DNA of 64,000 bases, taken from assembly GCA_024275955.1 (NCBI GenBank), contig JAJRYD010000024.1, positions 1 to 64,000 on the forward strand. The letters run 5' to 3'. A program made the translations under genes and the position numbers. This stretch comes from Nitrospirota bacterium (lineage in GTDB: Bacteria > Nitrospinota_A > UBA7883 > JACRGQ01). Below the pieces are notes generated by a model. The model had not been told where the DNA came from. It made no database searches and worked only from the letters and a program-made list of their open reading frames with translations. Positions 2,979 through 61,912 of this stretch are shown one piece after another (position 1 is the stretch's first letter; each line of letters opens with the position of its first letter).

Positions 2979-5550
<2,572 letters not shown>

Positions 5551-5551
<1 letters not shown>

Positions 5552-5678
5552 GGACTGTTTCCAAAAGAGTTTTTAAGTGTTTTAAAGAAAAGTTTATTTT
5601 CTAACTTCTTTAAAAGAGAGGTTTTAGCGATTGGCGATTTGTGGAAAAATCGAATTTATGCCATTCGGCAACAGCCCC
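5551..5678 (+). mobile_element. MITE family A, copy 1 (128 bp), abutting gyrB stop
   Basis: Starts GGGACTGTTTCC and ends GGCAACAGCCCC, an imperfect terminal inverted repeat of roughly 15-19 bases. It is flanked by a perfect 5-bp direct repeat GTTTA (5546-5550 and 5679-5683). It has no coding capacity. The same sequence recurs at seven other places in the window. The first base of the element provides the G of the gyrB TAG. Confidence 0.9.
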
Positions 5679-6772: not shown

Positions 6773-6896
6773 CAGGCTGTTATCCAGTGAGATATTTAAT
6801 TTTTCTATAAACTGCCAATTTCCAGTCTCTGTTTTTAAAAAATCAGAAGATACTCCCCTTTTTAAACGCTCAAAAAACTCTTTTGGAAACAGCCCC
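6773..6896 (-). mobile_element. MITE family A, copy 2, diverged
   Basis: A decayed copy in the opposite orientation. The outer end CTCTTTTGGAAACAGCCCC is well kept, as are the middle (CTGTTTTTAA...) and the CTGCCAATTTCCAG segment, but the inner end reads CAGGCTGTTATCCAG. Flanks TATTA (6768-6772) and TCTTA (6897-6901) agree at four of five positions, as expected for an old target duplication. Confidence 0.7.
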
Positions 6897-9790: not shown

Positions 9791-10053
9791 TCACCCCACC
9801 GAACGCACGCACGGCGTGAAGCGAGTAGCCACAACGCAGTTGGTATAGTTTACGAAAACGGAACTTTTGCCGAACAGACCGCCTCACTGCAAATGGCAAC
9901 TGCAAGCGGTAGGCGGCTACTGCCCCCGCGCCGTTATGTGGGGTAAATCAGGGGAGGCTATACGGAATAGCACTCCCCATCTCCCGAAGCCTGTAATTGA
10001 AGGTTCGCTGAAGAACCTATATTCTTTTTCGTCATAACTGCCGAAAACTTTAA
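9791..10053. repeat. Intergenic region with REP-like palindromes
   Basis: No gene is supported. The stretch carries short GC-rich palindromes such as GTAGGCGGCTAC (9909-9920) and inverted GC-rich words of the kind found around 10964-11130, 20472-20726, 49640-51600 and 59766-59820. It then runs into the IS5-type left end at 10054. Confidence 0.4.
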
Positions 10054-10700
10054 GGGGCCTGTTGCCGAATGGCATAAGTTTGGTTTTGTTTAAAACTGCC
10101 AACCGCTAAAATAGACCTCCCTGAAAAACTCTATTGACCCTATAGGTATTGATTTAAAGTGTGAATTCTGCCTGCTATAATTGCAAGGAATGAGCGATTA
10201 ACCCTTAAAACATGGGGATTTTATGTAGGCAAAAAAGCGTGATAATCAAGGTCTCCTATCCAAAGTTCGTCTTAATCAACTCTCCTTTGTATCGCCTTTC
10301 TAATGCAATCGACTGGTCATCTTTCGATGAAACATTCGGCAAACTTTACAGCCAAGGTATCGGTCGCCCTGCCAAACCGACCCGCCTTATGGTTGGCTTG
10401 CATTACTTGAAGGATAGTTTGCGGAAGTGGCTAAAGCGCAGGTCGGCTATCGAGCCGGTGATCGGTCATATGAAAAACGATGGACGGCTTGGGCGGAACT
10501 ACCTGCTTGGCGAAGAGGGCGACAAGATAAACGCAGTCCTTTGCGGTGCTGGGCATAATATGAGAAAGCTACTACGGGCTTTCTTATTCTTTCTTTTTGG
10601 CTGGCGGTTTTACGAAGATTTATCGGCAGAAAACTGAACTGGAAGGCAGGTAGCAAAACCTTGCCACGCTAAAAACCTACTTTTTTAGGAGCGACTAATT
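10054..10700 (+). mobile_element. IS5-type element remnant with MITE-like left end
   Basis: The left end (GGGGCCTGTTGCCGAATGGC from 10054) matches one end of the MITE family A copies in inverted orientation for about 60 bases, including the ATAAGTTTGGTTTTG and CTGCCAACCGCTAAA stretches. The transposase ORF follows at 10212. A convincing right inverted repeat is not seen; a sequence around 10668-10699 is only vaguely similar, so the element end is an estimate. This is the only relative of the MITEs in the window that still has coding sequence. Confidence 0.65.
10212..10637 (+). pseudogene. IS5-family transposase with in-frame internal deletion
   Basis: The first 65 residues match the N-terminus of IS5-type transposases (FVLINSPLYRLSNAIDWSSF, then GRPAKPTRLMVGLHYLKDS). 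The text then jumps directly to the C-terminal block (KRRSAIEPVIGHMKNDGRLG, GRNYLLGEEGDKINAVL). A full-length enzyme is about 400-450 residues, so roughly 300 residues with the two catalytic Asp are missing, while the final Glu (in IEPVIGH) is kept. The join is in frame, giving a 141-residue ORF that cannot be catalytically active. It could still bind the ends if expressed. Confidence 0.8.
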
Positions 10701-14193: not shown

Positions 14194-16266
14194 CTAAAGA
14201 TTGACTATTGATAATGTTTCAACTTGGGCCGTTGGGAGTATCTCGTTGTGAGAGAGTACGACAAGGTTTGGTATAAATCTTTCCGTCAGCCGTTTTAGAT
14301 GCACTCTTATCGACGGAGATGTGAGAAGTATCGGCTGATAATTGAGCATCGAGAACTTATCTAGCTCGGACTTAAGTTCGTCTATCATCGACTGGGCCAT
14401 GATAGGCTCAAGTGCCATATACGCTCCGTGCGGTGTCTGTTTTACAGATTCTTCCATTTTATCTTCTATAGCCTTTGTAAAGGAGATGACCGGCACCTTG
14501 CCTTCATCGGTCATATACTGTTTTGTGATAGGGCGGGATAACGCCTGCCTTACATACTCGGATAGAACGTCGGTATCTTTCGTAACATTGCCCCAGTCGG
14601 AAAGTGTTTCGAGCACGCTCTCCAAGTCTCTTATAGATATCTCCTCTTTTAGCAGGTTTTGCAGTATTTTGTGTACTTGCCCCAAGGTTAGAACGTTTGG
14701 CACGAGATCTTCCACCAGCTTTGGCGACTGCTCCTTAAAGTTTTCCAAGAGGTTGTGTACTTCCTGTCTGCCGAGGAGTTCCGGCGCGTGCTTTCTTATA
14801 AGTTCTTTTACATGCGTCGTAAGTACTGTCGGCACATCGACAACTGTGTATCCTGCCGATTTTGCTCTTTCCTTGTTCGCTTCGGAAATCCAGAGCGCCG
14901 GCAGTCCGAAGGTTGGTTCGGTTGTTTTGGTTCCGGGTATCGGTTCTACGCCTGTGCCTGGGTCCATCGCCAGCGAATGGTTCATCCATATCTCTCCGCC
15001 GGCTATTTTAACCCCTTTTAGAAGCACTGAATATTCGTTCGGCTTTAGCTGGAGGTTGTCCCGTATATGGAGCGGCGGTACTATGAAGCCTAGTTCCAGC
15101 GCGAACTGGCGGCGAAGTGATTTGATTCTGTCGAGCAGTTCGCCGTTTTGCGCCGCGTCTACCAGCGGTATAAGCTCGTATCCTATTTCAAGCTCCATCG
15201 TGTCGAGCGGCAGGAGCGATTCTACTTTTTCCTGTATAGGTGTCTCTGCTTTTTTCTTTTCTTCTTCTTCCACTTCCATAGCTAGTAAATCTTCCGCCTG
15301 ATAGGTGAGGTAGGCTATTGCTCCGGCCATAAACGAGAGCATAAAAAAGGCGGTGTGGGGAAGGCCCGGAATCATTCCAAAAAACGCAAGTACAGCCGAT
15401 GAGATGGCAAACGCCCGAGGGTGTCCGAGAAACTGTCTGGCTATGTCGGTACCCATGTCCGATTCCGACGCGGCGCGGGTAACTATAAGGCCGGACGCGG
15501 TGGAGACAATTAGAGCCGGAATCTGTGTTACCAGACCGTCTCCTATCGTCAGTATCGTATATACGCTTATCGCGTCCATAATACTCATATCTTGCTGGGC
15601 CACGCCGATTGCGAACCCGCCAAGCACGTTTACGAGAGTGATAATAATGCCAGCTACAGCATCGCCGCGCACGAAGCGGATAGCGCCGTCCATACTTCCG
15701 TAGAACTCGGCTTCCTGCTCGAGATCTTTTCTTCTTTTGCGTGCCTGCTCTTCCGTAATCATGCCGGCGTTAAGGTCGGCATCTATCGACATCTGCTTGC
15801 CCGGTATCGCATCGAGAGTAAACCTTGCAGCTACCTCGGATGTTCTTACCGAACCTTTGGTAATAACTATAAAGTTTATAAGCACCAGTATGGTGAATAT
15901 AACAGCGCCGACGACATAGTTACCGCCGACAACGAAGCTTCCAAAGCTCTCTATCACCGCCCCTGCCGCGTGCGTGCCTTCGTTACCGTTGGTAAGTATC
16001 AGACGGGTAGAGGCGACATTTAGCGACAGCCGGAAAAGCGTGATGATAAGGAGTACCGATGGAAACGCGGCGAACTCCAGCGCTCTTTTCATGTAGATAG
16101 ATACCATAAGGATAATCATCGAGAATGTGATGGAAAACGCGAGGAACAGATCTAGCATAATAGGAGGGAGCGGAATTACCATTACGGTAATAATGACAAC
16201 CATGCCGAACGCAAGGCCGACATCGCTATGCTTGGCAAATCCTGGCATTGCTTCTTTATTCGCCAT
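14194..16266 (-). CDS. flhA: Flagellar export gate protein FlhA
   Basis: FlhA forms the nonameric export gate ring of the flagellar type III apparatus. The 690-residue protein has an N-terminal membrane domain with about eight segments. It carries the FHIPEP-family signature between segments (ARFTLDAIPGKQMSIDADLN near residue 148) and a linker rich in Glu/Lys near 330. The large cytosolic chaperone-docking domain follows. The length equals the family norm. Confidence 0.97.
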   Translation of the reverse strand: MANKEAMPGFAKHSDVGLAFGMVVIITVMVIPLPPIMLDLFLAFSITFSMIILMVSIYMKRALEFAAFPSVLLIITLFRLSLNVASTRLILTNGNEGTHAAGAVIESFGSFVVGGNYVVGAVIFTILVLINFIVITKGSVRTSEVAARFTLDAIPGKQMSIDADLNAGMITEEQARKRRKDLEQEAEFYGSMDGAIRFVRGDAVAGIIITLVNVLGGFAIGVAQQDMSIMDAISVYTILTIGDGLVTQIPALIVSTASGLIVTRAASESDMGTDIARQFLGHPRAFAISSAVLAFFGMIPGLPHTAFFMLSFMAGAIAYLTYQAEDLLAMEVEEEEKKKAETPIQEKVESLLPLDTMELEIGYELIPLVDAAQNGELLDRIKSLRRQFALELGFIVPPLHIRDNLQLKPNEYSVLLKGVKIAGGEIWMNHSLAMDPGTGVEPIPGTKTTEPTFGLPALWISEANKERAKSAGYTVVDVPTVLTTHVKELIRKHAPELLGRQEVHNLLENFKEQSPKLVEDLVPNVLTLGQVHKILQNLLKEEISIRDLESVLETLSDWGNVTKDTDVLSEYVRQALSRPITKQYMTDEGKVPVISFTKAIEDKMEESVKQTPHGAYMALEPIMAQSMIDELKSELDKFSMLNYQPILLTSPSIRVHLKRLTERFIPNLVVLSHNEILPTAQVETLSIVNL

Positions 16267-16347
16267 TATTTCCTCTCTTGTATGTCAAAAATATGGCGGT
16301 ATAAGAAAGCCTTTCCTTGCCACCGTTTTTTATTTCATTTTCCATAA

Positions 16348-17427
16348 CTATTTGTTTTGTAACTCTTTTCCTTTCAGTCTATATACATACGCCAATATTT
16401 CGGCAATCGCCTTGAACACTTCTTCCGGTATCGCGTCGCCTATACCTATTGTCTTAAACAAGATTCTTGCCAAAGGCTTATCTTCGACCACCGGAACGTC
16501 ATTTTCTTTTGCTATCGCTTTAATTCTTTCTGCCACATGGCCGGCGCCTTTGGCTACTACCTGCGGAGCGGCCATTGTCATCCGGTCGTAGCTTATAGCT
16601 ATCGCGAGGTGTGTAGGGTTGGTTATTACCACCTCTGCTTTGGGGACATCCGCCATCATTCTCCGCTTGATCAGAGCGAGCTGGGCCGACCTGATTCTCG
16701 CTTTTGTTTGCGGGTCGCCGTCGGTGCTTTTCCGTTCGTCTTTTACCTCCTGTTTGGTCATCTTGAGGCCTTCTTCAAACTGGTATTTCTCAAAGGCGAA
16801 ATCTACTATCGCTAAAAATACTGTTATAAGCAGGACATACATCATAAGCTTGAACGCAACCCATGCTATGAAGAGGACTACCTGTTCGACGTTTTGGTCA
16901 GACAGTTTCGGAATGTTGCCCCATTCACTGCTGACGACGAGCCAACAGACGGTAGCGACTATCGCTATCTTGAAAATAGATTTGAAAAGATCCATAAATG
17001 CCTGTTTAGAGACGAACTTTCCAAAGCCTTTTATCGGGTCTAGCTTATTTAGTTTTGGCTTCATAGGCTCCGCTGTCAGGATGAACCCGCCGTTTTGCGC
17101 GATATTTACCAAAATGCCGGATAGCAAAGTAGTTATCATTATCGGTGCCAGAATTATCGCTATCATTTTTAGATAGTAGGCAAGCATAGGGCTCATGCTG
17201 TCGACCGTCAGCTCGTTATCTGGAAAAGTGGTAAAGCTTGTGGTCAGCAGTTCGGAAAGGTTTTCCCTTATATGCCCGCCGAAGAAATAAAGCGACAGCA
17301 CCGCGGCAAAAAGAACTATGGTGGAGCTTACCTCTTTTGATTTAGCGGTGCGGCCTTTTTTGAAAGAGTCGCCCCGTTTTTTTTCTGTTGGGTCTTCTGT
17401 TCGTTGATCCTTATCCTCATCTGCCAT
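16348..17427 (-). CDS. flhB: Flagellar export switch protein FlhB
   Basis: FlhB sets the substrate-specificity switch of the flagellar exporter. The 359-residue protein starts with a typical cytosolic lead (DKDQRTEDPTEKKRGDSFKKG), then four membrane segments. The cytosolic domain contains the self-cleaving NPTH motif (ITNPTHLAIAISYD, near residue 273). Spacing to fliR is 16 bases, so they are co-transcribed. Confidence 0.97.
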   Translation of the reverse strand: MADEDKDQRTEDPTEKKRGDSFKKGRTAKSKEVSSTIVLFAAVLSLYFFGGHIRENLSELLTTSFTTFPDNELTVDSMSPMLAYYLKMIAIILAPIMITTLLSGILVNIAQNGGFILTAEPMKPKLNKLDPIKGFGKFVSKQAFMDLFKSIFKIAIVATVCWLVVSSEWGNIPKLSDQNVEQVVLFIAWVAFKLMMYVLLITVFLAIVDFAFEKYQFEEGLKMTKQEVKDERKSTDGDPQTKARIRSAQLALIKRRMMADVPKAEVVITNPTHLAIAISYDRMTMAAPQVVAKGAGHVAERIKAIAKENDVPVVEDKPLARILFKTIGIGDAIPEEVFKAIAEILAYVYRLKGKELQNK

Positions 17428-17443
17428 TATACTCTCTCCATCT

Positions 17444-18220
17444 CTACATCAGCCTCATCAACAGCGTAAGGTCGGCATATAGCGCGGTGAACGAATGTTG
17501 AAAAACAGCCATAAATATAGGAGCAGTAGCGCCGAGCATCAGCAGGCCGAGCGCTATCTGTAGTGGAAAGCCTACGATAAAAACATTCATCTGCGGCACC
17601 GTGCGGGCCACAAGGCCAAGGCCGACATTTAGAAAAAAGAGAGTTGCCATTATCGGCGCGCCTAGTTTTATCGCTGTTATAAATACATTTTTAGTTAGCT
17701 CTATAACCATCTCCACAATCGCCGGCGAAGGCGAGAAAGCTAAAATAGGTATAAGCTCAAAACTTTTGGCGCCGGCGGCAAAGAGAAAGTGGTGTCCGTT
17801 TATCGCGAGAAAAATCATAAGCGCCATTATGTTTTGGAACTGCGCCGTAATCGAAATCTGCGATTGCGTCGCTGGATCCATTACGTTTACGATTGCAAAG
17901 CCCATCTGAAAACCGATTATCTGTCCGGCAAGCTGTACGGCGGTGAATATCAGTTGCGTGGCAAAACCTAGTATCAGCCCGATGGCGACTTCGCCTGTAA
18001 GCATAAGCGAGAACTTCCATACCGACATCGAAAGATCTAGCGGCGGCAGTTCGACGGTGGAAGTTATTATCATAGAAGTAAGCGCGGAAAGCCCTACCTT
18101 GGCTGGGACAGGCACTGTCGTCGCGCCGATTATCGGCATAGTAAACACAAGCGCGCTCATTCTCACAAAGACCATAGTGAAGAGAAGGAAAGTGTTGATG
18201 TCGAAGTTAAATAGATTCAC
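17444..18220 (-). CDS. fliR: Flagellar export protein FliR
   Basis: FliR is a membrane part of the FliPQR export pore. The 258-residue sequence is almost entirely hydrophobic with about six segments and family features such as FVRMSALVFTMPIIG at the start and GLILGFATQLIFTAVQLAGQ near 85. It overlaps fliQ by four bases and lies between fliQ and flhB as in most operons. Confidence 0.95.
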   Translation of the reverse strand: MNLFNFDINTFLLFTMVFVRMSALVFTMPIIGATTVPVPAKVGLSALTSMIITSTVELPPLDLSMSVWKFSLMLTGEVAIGLILGFATQLIFTAVQLAGQIIGFQMGFAIVNVMDPATQSQISITAQFQNIMALMIFLAINGHHFLFAAGAKSFELIPILAFSPSPAIVEMVIELTKNVFITAIKLGAPIMATLFFLNVGLGLVARTVPQMNVFIVGFPLQIALGLLMLGATAPIFMAVFQHSFTALYADLTLLMRLM

Positions 18221-18486
18221 TTTGCATATAATGGTATATTAATCAATATATTAGCCGTAAAAGAAAGCATTATCTGCAACATCCACGGAAGGAAGACTAT
18301 CATGGCGACCATCACTCCTATTATTTTGGGAATGAACGTGAGGGTCATCTCCTGAATAGATGTTACCGCCTGAAAAATTGATACCGCCAATCCTATGATA
18401 AGCCCGAAACCGAGCATAGGGGCCGACACTAATATGGTTGTTTCCATCGCTCTTCTCGCAAAGTCGACTATAAATTCTGGTGTCAT
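18217..18486 (-). CDS. fliQ: Flagellar export protein FliQ
   Basis: An 89-residue two-helix protein matching FliQ: start MTPEFIVDFARRAMETTILV, then AVSIFQAVTSIQEMTLTFIPK between the helices, the conserved QEMTL loop. FliQ packs around FliP and FliR in the export pore. Its stop overlaps the fliR start. Confidence 0.96.
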   Translation of the reverse strand: MTPEFIVDFARRAMETTILVSAPMLGFGLIIGLAVSIFQAVTSIQEMTLTFIPKIIGVMVAMIVFLPWMLQIMLSFTANILINIPLYAK

Positions 18487-18501
18487 TCTATAACCCCTTT
18501 C

Positions 18502-19251
18502 TTACCCAAAGCTCTTAACAAGCGAGCCGACAATTAAGTACCAGCCGTCAACAAGCACGAAAAGCATAAGCTTAAACGGGAGCGATATCATAATAGGAGG
18601 AAGCATAAGCATACCCATGCTCATTAGAACCGATGCTATAACCATGTCTAGAACCAGAAAAGGAACGTAAATCATAAAGCCTATCTGGAACGCCGTTCTT
18701 AATTCGCTTATAATGAAGGCCGGTATTATGATGTGCGAGCCTACCTCTTCGATGGTCTTAGGCTTTTCTCCGCCAGCCATATTTACAAAAAGCGCTAGGT
18801 CTTTTTCTCTTGTCTGCTTTAGCATAAATTTTCTCAACGGCTGTAATGCTGTCGTAAACGCCTCTTCCTGTCCTATCTCATCGTTAAGGAAAGGCTGTAG
18901 CGATTCTTCGTTTATCTGCGTAAAGATAGGCGACATTATGAAGAACGTAAGGAATAGTGCTAGGCCTATCAAAAGCTGGTTGGGCGGCATCTGTTGGGTT
19001 CCCATAGCTTGCCTAAGGAACGAGAGAACTATTACTATCCTTCCAAAAGAGGTGAGCGTGATAAGTATCGCAGGTGCCAGCGAAAGTACAGTCAGTATAA
19101 AAAGTACTTTAAGCGATGTCGCTACCTTTTCGTTATCGGTGGAGTCCTCCACGCCGATGCTTATGGTCGGTATCCCCTCCGCAAAGAGCGGCGAGGCGTT
19201 AAGAAGCGTGAGCGCCGCTACGATAAGCAGAATTGCCGGCAGTTTTTTCAT
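18502..19251 (-). CDS. fliP: Flagellar export protein FliP
   Basis: A 249-residue core protein of the export pore with a cleavable signal peptide (MKKLPAILLIVAALTLLNAS...LFAEG). Family motifs are TSFGRIVIVLSFLRQAMGTQQMPPNQLLIGLALFLT in two blocks near 65-105, and the later PAFIISELRTAFQIGFMIYVPF. It overlaps the fliO stop by four bases. Confidence 0.97.
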   Translation of the reverse strand: MKKLPAILLIVAALTLLNASPLFAEGIPTISIGVEDSTDNEKVATSLKVLFILTVLSLAPAILITLTSFGRIVIVLSFLRQAMGTQQMPPNQLLIGLALFLTFFIMSPIFTQINEESLQPFLNDEIGQEEAFTTALQPLRKFMLKQTREKDLALFVNMAGGEKPKTIEEVGSHIIIPAFIISELRTAFQIGFMIYVPFLVLDMVIASVLMSMGMLMLPPIMISLPFKLMLFVLVDGWYLIVGSLVKSFG

Positions 19252-20447
19252 ACAGTCGCCTCCTGCATCGCCTTTATTCTGGTCATTATGTCGTTAGACA
19301 TCGTTTTGGCAAGCTGTTCTCTTGTAAGCTTTGCCTTTTCCTTTTTCTCTTTTTTTATAGCCTCTTTTTGGGAGAGAGATGCTTTTTCCATCTCTTTTTT
19401 ACGGCTCTTCATCTCGTTTGCGAACTTTTGGGATATCTTTTCTTTGGCACTCACTCCCCATTTTATTCCCGGAATCTTTTTAGCAAGCCCTATAGGCTTT
19501 TGCGGAAGCCGGTTGCCGAGCCTTATCTGCTCTATCTTTTCAGGGTCGTCGTATTTGGCCAGAAGGTTTATGTTGCTGTTTGTCACCCCAAGTACGAGGA
19601 TTTCGCCGGCAACCTCTATGATGGTTACGTTTTTCTTTACGCCTATAAAATGGTTGGAGAGTACTTTCACGTCGTCTTTGCTTCCAAGTCTGCCGTCAAC
19701 GGAACCTAGATATTTTCTAGCCGCCCATCCGGTAAGAAGCACAAGAGAGAGAACTATTGCCAGAGCGCTTACCACCTTGACGACGGAAGAACCGACGGAT
19801 GGTACGGCAGGTACGGTCGGCTCGGAATATTTTAAGAAACCGGGAATCTCATCGCTACCGGCAGTCGAAGCGGTAAGGTTTAGAGGCTCGGCATCGTCCA
19901 ATATCGTATCTTCAATATTTTTTTCTGCTTTTTTCATAAAAGGGGTCAAAGGCTTGGGCTCTACAGCTAAAGCTGTTGTCCTGTCTGTCGTGGTTTTTGA
20001 CGCTTTTGAGGCAGTTTCCGTCAGTTCCTTATCAGTCGCTTCGAGGGAACCAACGGCAAAAGAAAATCTGGCGACTAAACTGTTTTCGACAGTATCTAGT
20101 GAAAAATCTTTGGAGATATCGGACAGCTTACCTTGAGGGAAAATTCTTATCCGCAAAGTTCTGCTGTTGTACTGGTAAACCTGTATCTCCTTTACTCCTC
20201 CTTCGTTTACTTCTATAGTATTCTTAGAAGGTACTGAAAAAGCATCCTTTACCTCTATCTGTATAGATTTCTTCAGGAGAGTCATTTTTGCTTTTGGTGT
20301 TTTTTCAAAGTCGAAACGCAGGTTAAATCTGTCGCTTGAGTTCTCTGGAATTACTGTGTTGAACCTGTTGAGAGCATACGCGTCGCCGTACCCTGCAAGC
20401 ATAGCGAGCAATGCCGCCAGCGTCATTATTACCTTTATGTTTCTCAC
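19248..20447 (-). CDS. fliO: FliO-like protein with AMIN-type N-terminal region
   Basis: FliO helps assemble the FliPQR pore. I choose the GTG at 20447 because AGGAGGAG precedes it at good spacing and it gives a clean signal peptide (RNIKVIMTLAALLAMLAGYG, then DAYA). Residues about 30-130 look like a beta-rich AMIN-type domain. A Ser/Thr-rich linker follows, then one membrane helix (VVKVVSALAIVLSLVLLTGW), then the cytosolic FliO domain with VLSNHFIGVKKNVTIIEVAG. A long charged Lys/Glu coiled tail ends the protein. FliO is usually 100-200 residues, so this 399-residue form is unusually long. It is the first gene of the operon; fliM and fliN are not upstream. Confidence 0.85.
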   Translation of the reverse strand: MRNIKVIMTLAALLAMLAGYGDAYALNRFNTVIPENSSDRFNLRFDFEKTPKAKMTLLKKSIQIEVKDAFSVPSKNTIEVNEGGVKEIQVYQYNSRTLRIRIFPQGKLSDISKDFSLDTVENSLVARFSFAVGSLEATDKELTETASKASKTTTDRTTALAVEPKPLTPFMKKAEKNIEDTILDDAEPLNLTASTAGSDEIPGFLKYSEPTVPAVPSVGSSVVKVVSALAIVLSLVLLTGWAARKYLGSVDGRLGSKDDVKVLSNHFIGVKKNVTIIEVAGEILVLGVTNSNINLLAKYDDPEKIEQIRLGNRLPQKPIGLAKKIPGIKWGVSAKEKISQKFANEMKSRKKEMEKASLSQKEAIKKEKKEKAKLTREQLAKTMSNDIMTRIKAMQEATV

Positions 20448-20726: not shown

Positions 20727-20975
20727 GGGACTGTTTCCAAAAGAGTTTTTAAGCGTTTTAAAGGAAAGTTCATTTTCTAACTTCGTAAAAACAGAGGCTT
20801 TAGGGTTCCTCTAAAAATAAGTGATTTTCTTCATCGGTTTCGACAATAGCACTAAATCCCCATCTATAATTCGACCAACCAAAAGCCAGAACTTCAAAAA
20901 TAGATTTTTAGAGGCTCCCTTTAGAGGTTGGCGATTTACGGCAAAATCAAATTTATGCCATTCGGCAACAGCCCC
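20727..20975 (+). mobile_element. MITE family A, copy 3, interrupted by a second MITE
   Basis: The outer element has the usual ends (GGGACTGTTTCC at 20727, GGCAACAGCCCC ending at 20975). Flanks CGAAT (20722-20726) and TGAAT (20976-20980) agree at four of five positions. Its body is split at 20802/20920 by a 117-bp insert. Without the insert and one TTTA it would be about 128 bp like the other copies. Confidence 0.9.
20803..20919. mobile_element. MITE family B nested in MITE A (117 bp)
   Basis: The insert begins GGGTTCCTCTAAAAATAA and ends, read from the other strand, GGGAGCCTCTAAAAATCTA: a ~15-bp imperfect terminal inverted repeat. It is flanked by a TTTA direct repeat (20799-20802 and 20920-20923) that occurs once at the same position in undisturbed family A copies. 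It has no coding capacity. I see no second copy of this family in the window. Confidence 0.8.
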
Positions 20976-37872: not shown

Positions 37873-38003
37873 GGGACTGTTTCCAAAAGAGTTTTTTTTG
37901 AGCATTTTAAGGGGAAGTTCATTTTCTAACTTTTTAAAAATAGAGTCTTTAGAGATTGGTAATTTATAAAAAAATCAAATTTATCTCATTCGGCAACAGC
38001 CCC
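37873..38003 (+). mobile_element. MITE family A, copy 4 (131 bp)
   Basis: Standard ends GGGACTGTTTCC and GGCAACAGCCCC, flanked by a perfect CTTAA duplication (37868-37872 and 38004-38008). It lies just after the Sel1 gene. The rest of the spacer to 38229 contains a short GC-rich hairpin (CCGCCCCGCAGGCGG near 38039-38053) and no gene. Confidence 0.9.
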
Positions 38004-48787: not shown

Positions 48788-49302
48788 TCCTCTAAAAAAG
48801 TATGTTAAATCTCTTTGCTTCAGCCAATCAGGAGAAAGCCTACAGAAACGATGTTAACCGTTTGTGAACCGAATATTAAGATTATGTTAAGACTACACTA
48901 ACGGCGTGGGGTTGGGCAGTAGCTGGGTTGCCTTTAGCTTCGCTGACGCTTGCAGAAACTCATTTTATCTGAAAAACTGATGTAACTTGTTTTGACATAC
49001 CCGCACCCGCTCTGCATACTTTTTGTTTTAATCAAAGATGGTAGAAGCTTTGGATTGATTAAAATAGTCGAACCTGAAAAAGCTGTTTATTGTTTAAACG
49101 ATTATAAAAACCTTTCCCTTTTTAAGAAGGGAAGGCGGCGTGAGCCTGTCGAACTCCGGAAGGATTACCAATAAGAACCACCCCCGCCCTTCGGGCGACC
49201 CCCTCCTTCCGCTTCGCTAAGGAGGAGTTTTTTGCAAAGAACCCTTGAGTTCAATAACCATCTTTTCGATTGCTTCTTCATTTTTCTTGCGATTTCCAAA
49301 GA
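48788..49302. repeat. Repeat-rich spacer; repeat family R1 copy 1 at 48920-49023
   Basis: No gene is supported. Bases 48920-49023 are a repeat that recurs inverted at 59904-60141, about 92 percent identical over its 91-base core by my count (7 differences). The second copy has a MITE inside it; this one is empty (TTTAG read as CTAAA in the other orientation). Downstream a short palindromic GC-rich string CCGCCCTTCGGGCG (49186-49199) and an inverted CTCCTTCCGCTTCGCTAAGGAG follow. Confidence 0.75.
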
Positions 49303-49431
49303 GGGACTGTTTCCAAAAGAGTTTTTTGAGCAGTTTAAGGAAAAGTTTATTTTCTAACTTCTTTAAAATAGAACCGTTAGAGAGTGGCAAGTTGTAGCAA
49401 AATCAAGATTGTCTTATTCGGCAACAGCCCC
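49303..49431 (+). mobile_element. MITE family A, copy 5 (129 bp)
   Basis: Standard ends and a perfect AAAGA duplication (49298-49302 and 49432-49436). A short minus-strand frame of the preceding sequence is cut here (a Lys/Glu-rich string ending LKGSLQKTPP), so the MITE may have inserted into an already broken gene tail; the gene is not recognisable. Confidence 0.9.
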
Positions 49432-49563
49432 AAAGAGTAAAAACCGATATTAAGCTTTATTCGCAGTATGAAGCAACTTTATCAGGGACGACTAAAATAG
49501 GTTGGTACCTCGTTTTCGCACGTTCAATTAAGATCGCTCGCAATGGGAGGTTGCCGGGGAGTT

Positions 49564-51346: not shown

Positions 51347-51475
51347 GGGGCTGTTGCCCAATGAGATAAATTTGATTTTCCTACAAATTACCAATTCCTA
51401 AAGGCTCCATTTTTAAGAAGTTAGAAAATGAACTTCTCCTTAAAATGCTCAAAAAACTCTTTTGGAAACAGCCCC
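51347..51475 (-). mobile_element. MITE family A, copy 6 (129 bp, inverted)
   Basis: Begins GGGGCTGTTGCCCAATG and ends CTCTTTTGGAAACAGCCCC, with a perfect ATAAT duplication (51342-51346, 51476-51480). It is the reverse of copies 1, 3-5, 7 and 8. Confidence 0.9.
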
Positions 51476-59028: not shown

Positions 59029-59766
59029 ATGCAAAACTTTAGAACCGCCGCAATCGTTCTTACAACCGTTCTTTCCTCCATGTTGATATATGGGTGCTCC
59101 ACAAAAGGGGCTATCGAATCGCGGGAGCTTACAACCTCCGTAAAGATGTCGGAAACTATATTTCTAGAGCCTGTAGAGCCGGAGCAGAAGGTTATATGGG
59201 TACATGTTCGCAATACTTCCGACAAGCAGGACTTCGACCCCGTAAAAATGGAAGAGGCTATGACCAAAGAGTTTGAGCGGCGGGGCTACAGAGTAACCGA
59301 CTCGCCAAAGGCGGCCCATTACCGCTTGCAGGCGAACCTCCTTTACGCCGACCACGAGAAACAAGGGCTTACCGAGGAAGGGATAATGCTTGGCGGTTTT
59401 GGCGGAGCGATACTTGGCGGAGAGGTAGGCGGTGATAGTCTCTCTAAAACCGGCGCGCAGGTGATAGGCGCGGTAGTCGGTGCGGCTGTCGGCGGAATTG
59501 CTGGAGCGGCGATACATGTTGATAAATATATGCTGGTTGTAGATGTACAGATTGCCGAAAGAAAAAAAGAAGGAGTGAGCAACTATCAGTCGGGAGAGTC
59601 AACCTCGGGAAAAGTCACCAAAGAACAGTCGACATCATCAAGCGGAGAGTTTATCAACTACCGGACAAGGGTGGTTGGGATAGCAAAAAAAACCAATCTT
59701 AAGTGGGAAGAGGCACAGCCGATACTGCTGGAGAAGTTTACTTACTCGCTTGCCGGAATCTTCTAG
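59029..59766 (+). CDS. TraT-like complement-resistance lipoprotein
   Basis: A 245-residue lipoprotein: signal peptide with lipobox LIYGCSTKGA (Cys at residue 23). The body matches TraT: VHVRNTSDKQDF, a segment of Gly-rich hydrophobic text (GGFGGAILGGEVGG and IGAVVGAAVGGIAGAAIHVDKYMLVVDVQI), and a C-terminal FINYRTRVVGIAKKTNLKWEEA. In F plasmids TraT is an outer-membrane surface-exclusion and serum-resistance protein; here it is chromosomal and far from any conjugation genes. AAGGAG precedes the ATG. Confidence 0.88.
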   Translation: MQNFRTAAIVLTTVLSSMLIYGCSTKGAIESRELTTSVKMSETIFLEPVEPEQKVIWVHVRNTSDKQDFDPVKMEEAMTKEFERRGYRVTDSPKAAHYRLQANLLYADHEKQGLTEEGIMLGGFGGAILGGEVGGDSLSKTGAQVIGAVVGAAVGGIAGAAIHVDKYMLVVDVQIAERKKEGVSNYQSGESTSGKVTKEQSTSSSGEFINYRTRVVGIAKKTNLKWEEAQPILLEKFTYSLAGIF

Positions 59767-59903: not shown

Positions 59904-60141
59904 AAAAGTATGCGGAGCGGGTGCTGGTATATCAAAACGAGTTACATCAGTTTTTCAAATAAAATGAGTTTCTGCGAGTGTCAGCGAAGCTAAAGGGACT
60001 GTTTCCAAAAGAGTTTTTAAGCGTTTTAAAGGAGAAGTTCATTTTCTAACTTCGTAAAAACAGAGGCTTTAGAGATTGGCGATTTACAGCAAAATCAAAT
60101 TTATGCCATTCGGCAACAGCCCCCTAAAGGCAACGGAGCTA
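59904..60141 (-). repeat. Repeat family R1, copy 2, interrupted by MITE A copy 7
   Basis: Inverted match to 48920-49023. The continuity of the repeat is broken at CTAAA, where the MITE at 59995-60123 is inserted; the remaining piece CTAAAGGCAAC-x-x-AGCTA continues directly after it. It supplies a filled/empty pair for the MITE. Confidence 0.85.
59995..60123 (+). mobile_element. MITE family A, copy 7 (129 bp)
   Basis: Standard ends with perfect CTAAA duplication (59990-59994, 60124-60128). It sits inside repeat R1. It is about the same as copies 3 and 8 in its body, so insertion or spread is recent. Confidence 0.92.
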
Positions 60142-60239
60142 ATCGCGATAAGCATGCTGTGCCAACCTGCTTTTTGTTATGATATCAAAATGAAATTTAC
60201 TTTCTCCAAGGAGCGCTTCCATGCGCTGTATGGCGTGTA

Positions 60240-60893
60240 ATGGCGCTTGCTGAATGTCGGGTATGCGGAGCGATGTCGCCCGTTTTTTTTGAAGACAAAA
60301 GAAAATTCTACAAATGCCGTAACTGCTTTCTTATATTTACCGATGAGTTCGCGGGCGAAGCGGAGGCAGAGGCGCACTATAAAAAACAGCAGGCGGAAAC
60401 CGACGCGTCGTTCTGGAAGGAACAGGTTGATGCATTGCTTACCATTTCTGCCAAGTATGTTCCACGCCCAAAAAAGATTCTTGATTTTGGCGCAGGTTCC
60501 GGCGAAATAACAAAAGAGATTAGGAGCCGTGGGCTAGACTGCACTTCGCTCGAACCTATGGAAGACGGTTTTTTAAAAGACCAAAGCTTCGGGGAAAAGT
60601 TCGACATTATTTTTGCGGTAGAGGTTATAGAGCATATCCAGAACCTTTGGGAAGAGCTAAGGGAGATGGAAGAGGTTCTCTCCCCCGGCGGGGTGATGGT
60701 TTTTAGCACCATACTTACCGATAAATTTGTATACGAGGCGAATAGTGTCGATGTTTTTAGAGAATGGTTTTACAAGGACGACCAGACGCATGTCTCGTTT
60801 TTTTGCAACGAGACGATGTCTTATATCGCCAATATGCTGGGGTACGAAGCGTATACTTTCGGCCAGAACGTCATAGTGCTTAAAAGCCGATAG
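60240..60893 (+). CDS. SAM-dependent methyltransferase with N-terminal zinc ribbon
   Basis: A 217-residue class I methyltransferase: N-terminal C-x2-C ... C-x2-C (CRVCGAMSPVFF and YKCRNCFLIF), then the SAM-binding motif ILDFGAGSGEITKEI near residue 80. FDIIFAVEVIEHIQNLWEEL and LSPGGVMVFSTI follow. Such proteins methylate small molecules or sugars; the substrate is unknown. The ATG at 60240 has no clear ribosome-binding site. AAGGAG at 60208 leads to an ATG at 60221 in another frame that stops after 10 codons, which may be a leader peptide or a sign of a shifted start. Confidence 0.8.
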   Translation: MALAECRVCGAMSPVFFEDKRKFYKCRNCFLIFTDEFAGEAEAEAHYKKQQAETDASFWKEQVDALLTISAKYVPRPKKILDFGAGSGEITKEIRSRGLDCTSLEPMEDGFLKDQSFGEKFDIIFAVEVIEHIQNLWEELREMEEVLSPGGVMVFSTILTDKFVYEANSVDVFREWFYKDDQTHVSFFCNETMSYIANMLGYEAYTFGQNVIVLKSR

Positions 60894-61783: not shown

Positions 61784-61912
61784 AGGACTGTTTCCAAAAG
61801 AGTTTTTAAGCGTTTTAAAGGAGAAGTTCATTTTCTAACTTCGTAAAAACAGAGGCTTTAGAGATTGGCGATTTACAGCAAAACCAAATTTATGCCATTC
61901 GGCAACAGCCCC
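61784..61912 (+). mobile_element. MITE family A, copy 8 (129 bp)
   Basis: The start is AGGACTGTTTCC (first base differs) and the end GGCAACAGCCCC; AGCAA duplication is perfect (61779-61783, 61913-61917). It is nearly identical to copy 7. Confidence 0.92.

Follow-up and report, generated by a model that had tools for sequence, protein, structure and literature searches.

An older repeat, R1, is present in two copies, one of which has received a gene-less mini-transposon of 129 bp; the sites before and after this event lie 11 kb apart within the single 64,000-nucleotide stretch of DNA analysed here (the window). The event is real and well supported. We put at about 95% the probability that the 129-bp unit is a copy of a high-copy family of non-autonomous DNA transposons (a MITE) of this Nitrospinota genome and that it was mobilised in trans into R1.

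The stretch was read on both strands. The filled site lies between a TraT-like gene (59029-59766) and a methyltransferase gene (60240-60893), and its sequence runs ...GCGAAGCTAAA, then the element GGGACTGTTTCC...GGCAACAGCCCC, then CTAAAGGCAACGGAGCTAA; the corresponding empty sequence, on the minus strand of 48920-49023, reads ...GCGAAGCTAAAGGCAACCCAGCTAC (Table 1). Promoter and terminator scans at the filled site returned nothing notable. The preliminary description had recognised a filled and an empty R1 site within one window, had explained them by insertion of a gene-less inverted-repeat element into a pre-existing repeat with a target duplication, and had expected the R1 parts to join once the element was taken out, and our analysis bears it out on each of these points. 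The filled copy aligns without gaps to the minus strand of 48931-49023 (93 bp, 92.5% identity, E 1.7e-34), and once the element and a single CTAAA are deleted the two copies are collinear and gapless across the junction, agreeing at 84 of 91 positions to its left and at 11 of 13 to its right. Among 200,000 random 13-mers drawn from the same genome, four reached the agreement seen on the right side. A short way past the junction on the right, the window's empty copy and the filled one cease to agree, and beyond that point the filled copy's GGCAACGGAGCTAA resembles two other relatives of R1, GGCGGCGAAGCTAAC (L011 = C29) and GGCAGAGCTAA (L013 = C1), both of which are without the element at the insertion point. 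A small correction concerns the extent of 48920-49023 given for the empty copy: R1 is longer, with an nhmmer envelope of 48930-49062 for that copy, and it adjoins a second repeat, R2, which bears a MITE copy of its own.

Table 1. Positions of the repeats, MITE copies and target-site duplications (TSDs) in the window.
Feature	Position	Strand	Details
MITE copy	5551..5678	+	TSD GTTTA
Degenerate MITE copy	6794..6896	-	right end damaged
MITE right-end fragment	10050..10110	-	
MITE copy, enlarged	20727..20975	+	249 bp, with nested short inverted-repeat insert; flanks CGAAT/TGAAT, 4/5
MITE copy	37873..38003	+	TSD CTTAA
Empty R1 copy	48920..49062	-	without element at CTAAA
R2 repeat	49062..49494	+	about 300 bp without insert; terminal inverted repeat TAGTCGTCCCTGAWAAAG; adjoins R1; second, independent filled site
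MITE copy in R2	49303..49431	+	TSD AAAGA; 15 empty R2 paralogues span the junction
MITE copy	51347..51475	-	TSD ATTAT
Filled R1 copy, left part	59904..59994	+	weaker profile match from about 59881
Left target-site duplication	59990..59994	+	CTAAA
MITE copy in R1	59995..60123	+	129 bp
Right target-site duplication	60124..60128	+	CTAAA
Filled R1 copy, right part	60129..60142	+	11/13 against the empty copy; resembles two other R1 relatives
MITE copy	61784..61912	+	TSD AGCAA; 99% identical to the 59995 copy

The element belongs to a family of more than 110 copies in this draft genome of 56 contigs, of which 1.70 of 2.45 Mb (about 70%) was read base by base. The host is most likely an uncultivated Nitrospinota: named relatives of its LolC/E protein, at 60-69% identity, come from Nitrospinota and Nitrospinales assemblies, besides one labelled Nitrospirae and one unnamed bacterium. 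The members of the family carry the terminal repeat GGGRCTGTTKCCRAA and no gene; their typical length of 129-130 bp is too short for a transposase, their ends have the form GGG...CCC, and the two consensus ends agree at 15 of the 19 outermost positions and less beyond. With up to two mismatches allowed, the genome contains the left end at 113 places, the right end at 131 and the reversed control patterns at none. A profile search of the 1.70 Mb gave 156 matches; for 116 copies, both ends could be located. A sister group, with about 43 profile matches, shares the outer end and has a different interior (GGGGCTGTTGCCGAAATAG...). The element was absent from the 59 other genomes searched, ten of them from the same family, apart from one marginal 31-base match in G045; the viral contigs searched held one exact end match, which MITE sequence did not follow, and our search of the literature on MITEs with Nitrospina found no description of the MITE family.

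The preliminary description also held that the R1 pair shows a 5-bp CTAAA duplication directly, which is slightly too strong a reading of the pair, although the length itself is correct. Because the host sequence after CTAAA and the element both begin with GG, the pair alone is fitted by a duplication of 5, 6 or 7 bp: it can equally be read as a 7-bp CTAAAGG duplication around a 127-bp element, and what it fixes is the sum of 134 inserted bases. The genome-wide count settles the target duplication at 5 bp. For this count the copy ends were anchored on the terminal inverted repeats (profile-defined ends blur 5 versus 6 bp), and an exact 5-bp duplication was found at 61 of the 116 full-length copies so anchored in the 1.70 Mb, against a mean of 1.55 and a maximum of 7 when the right flanks were shuffled. 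A 6-bp duplication was found at one copy, 7-bp and 8-bp duplications at none, and a match at four or more of the five positions at 77. The duplicated 5-mers vary between copies; they are 81% AT, where the flanks are 55% AT, and they favour T as the second base and A as the fourth.

R1 was described at the outset as an older repeat, and the sequence comparisons support this order. There are about 15-19 degraded, often partial copies of R1 in the 1.70 Mb, with no clear terminal repeats. Divergence is 7.5% between the two copies in the window and about 25% for other R1 relatives, whereas the inserted element is 100% identical over its 129 bp to a copy on another contig (G000:C4:13689-13817) and nearly so to the copy at 61784. 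Together with the two relatives that are without the element, this divergence argues that R1 predates the MITE insertion.

To find further empty sites, we built for each copy a sequence of its two flanks joined by a single duplication and searched these sequences against the 1.70 Mb. Four further insertions had clean empty paralogues across the junction (as throughout, these empty sites are paralogous, not orthologous): the 49303 copy, whose 15 empty paralogues reach 93% identity over the junction; L085:17859 (TTTAA), which lies inside a sister-group MITE and has 48; L188:18104 (ATAAA), with 3; and L078:7113 (AATAA), with 2. The empty-site candidates for L183:9675 did not align cleanly across the junction and were left out of the count. 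Three of the five insertions with empty sites lie in R2 copies, at different points of R2, and the 49303 copy, which is a neighbour of the empty R1 copy, demonstrates insertion more strongly than does the 59995 copy. R2 is non-coding and has no fewer than 15 additional copies, which are 82-93% identical. In its ends it agrees with the 3′ end of a resident IS5-type element (TTTATCAAGGGCGACTA), and so it seems to be the MITE that belongs to this element. R2 resembles the 129-bp MITE in having no coding sequence, in its terminal repeats and in its many copies in the same genome, and differs in its ends, which are unrelated to those of the 129-bp element.

Two other copies in the window have features of their own. 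The insert that enlarges the 20727 copy (window 20800-20920) has ends GGGTTCCTCTAAAAAT / GGGAGCCTCTAAAAAT and TTTA flanks, and seems to represent a third family of miniature elements, here nested within the 129-bp MITE. Next to the 5551 copy, the TAG stop codon of a 795-aa ORF (window 3164-5551) straddles the junction between the GTTTA duplication and the MITE, whose first base completes it, and the protein may therefore have been shortened at its end by the insertion. Elsewhere in the genome we noted two tandem repeats, one in L188 (C23) at 15846-16484 that repeats about every 81 bp, in copies 93-95% identical, the other a long array in L205 (C42) at 15280-19280 with a period of about 61 bp and about 69% likeness over 4 kb, which is probably a gene for a repetitive protein.

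Precise excision is known for some transposons, and the R1 pair could in principle have arisen from an element ancestral to both copies that was precisely lost, with one CTAAA, from the 48920 copy. We consider this history very unlikely, since the two other R1 relatives that reach the insertion point are also without the element, and since its identity to the C4 copy, set against the divergence of the R1 copies, indicates that the element is younger than the R1 split. It is hardly credible that the 129-bp unit is instead a motif with a structural or regulatory role, in RNA or DNA, that recombination or duplication rather than transposition has spread: although its folding as a single strand is somewhat better than that of shuffles (z about -2.0 and -2.6), this is largely owed to the terminal repeats, and such a motif would account poorly for a 5-bp target duplication at more than half of the anchored copies and for insertions at different R2 points and into related MITE copies. 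Rfam, searched over the window, matched no family except a tRNA.

A third alternative is that the element is a TIME of the Tn3 group. Tn3 ends begin with GGGG, and the element here begins with GGG. TIMEs have short, AT-rich duplications of 5 or 6 bp (PMC4133298); they also lack genes and have been shown to move in trans, as this element probably does. Their inverted repeats, however, are 38-bp repeats of Tn3 type (PMC4133298), compared with a consensus end match of about 19 bp here. Moreover, the Tn3 transposase (PF01526) is absent from the genome at E <= 0.01, and we regard membership in this group as very unlikely.

The reading that we favour is that a transposase acting in trans inserted the MITE. 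Given what is established about MITEs, a fixed-length duplication, inverted ends and no coding capacity together point to integration in this way, and we infer a DDE-type enzyme working by cut-and-paste or a related mechanism. Such a transposase would bind the imperfect terminal repeats (GGGACTGTTTCCAAAAGAG / GGGGCTGTTGCCGAATG..), cut an existing R1 copy at CTAAA with a 5-bp stagger and join the element there, and gap repair would then duplicate CTAAA; the R1 copy at 48920-49062 is the paralogous empty site. No transposase-bearing element with MITE ends was recognised in the 1.70 Mb, where a screen for paired ends 300-4000 bp apart with a near-duplication returned three places; in each of them, we judged that a MITE end had been paired with a chance match. 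Transposases of the IS6 (DDE_Tnp_IS240), IS1595 and IS1380 families are absent from the whole genome. The resident IS5-type element, among the genome's only DDE_Tnp_1 genes, has ends (TAGTCG...) that differ from those of the MITE. One MITE copy, at L080:9886-10013 (C27:17885-18012; duplication AGTAG/CTACT), lies beside an IS5-type transposase gene that is truncated. Tentatively, the mover could be a transposase of an undescribed group, or one no longer present in the lineage, so that more than 110 copies, some of them identical, would now be orphans, but we would not think this probable.

The R1 site proves cleanly, from within one genome, that this MITE family transposes, and does so in a phylum that has been little studied. 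The site establishes the ends of the element and, with the genome survey, the target duplication, which is what a search for the transposase needs. The finding is of an ordinary kind and leaves the general picture unchanged. The family has the features by which MITEs are recognised: short length without a transposase gene, terminal inverted repeats, a target duplication of fixed length and collinear empty sites. Among bacterial MITEs, Correia/NEMIS, RUP and ERIC have been reviewed, most with 5′-TA-3′ termini (PMC2229807). Like the element described here, they are shorter than 200 bp, encode no protein, carry terminal inverted repeats, are flanked by a target duplication and occur in many copies, and their units, too, are defined by comparison of filled and empty sites; the present element differs in having no TA termini, its ends being GGGRCTGTTKCC and its 5-bp duplication AT-rich. 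IS6-family elements have ends GGNNCTGTTGCAAA and make duplications of 8 bp. Their outer motif, GG..CTGTTGC, resembles the MITE end, whereas neither their duplication length (0 of 116 copies) nor a DDE_Tnp_IS240 gene is found in this genome. By these comparisons, the family is new but its kind is well known: its members are bacterial MITEs, probably mobilised in trans by a DDE transposase.
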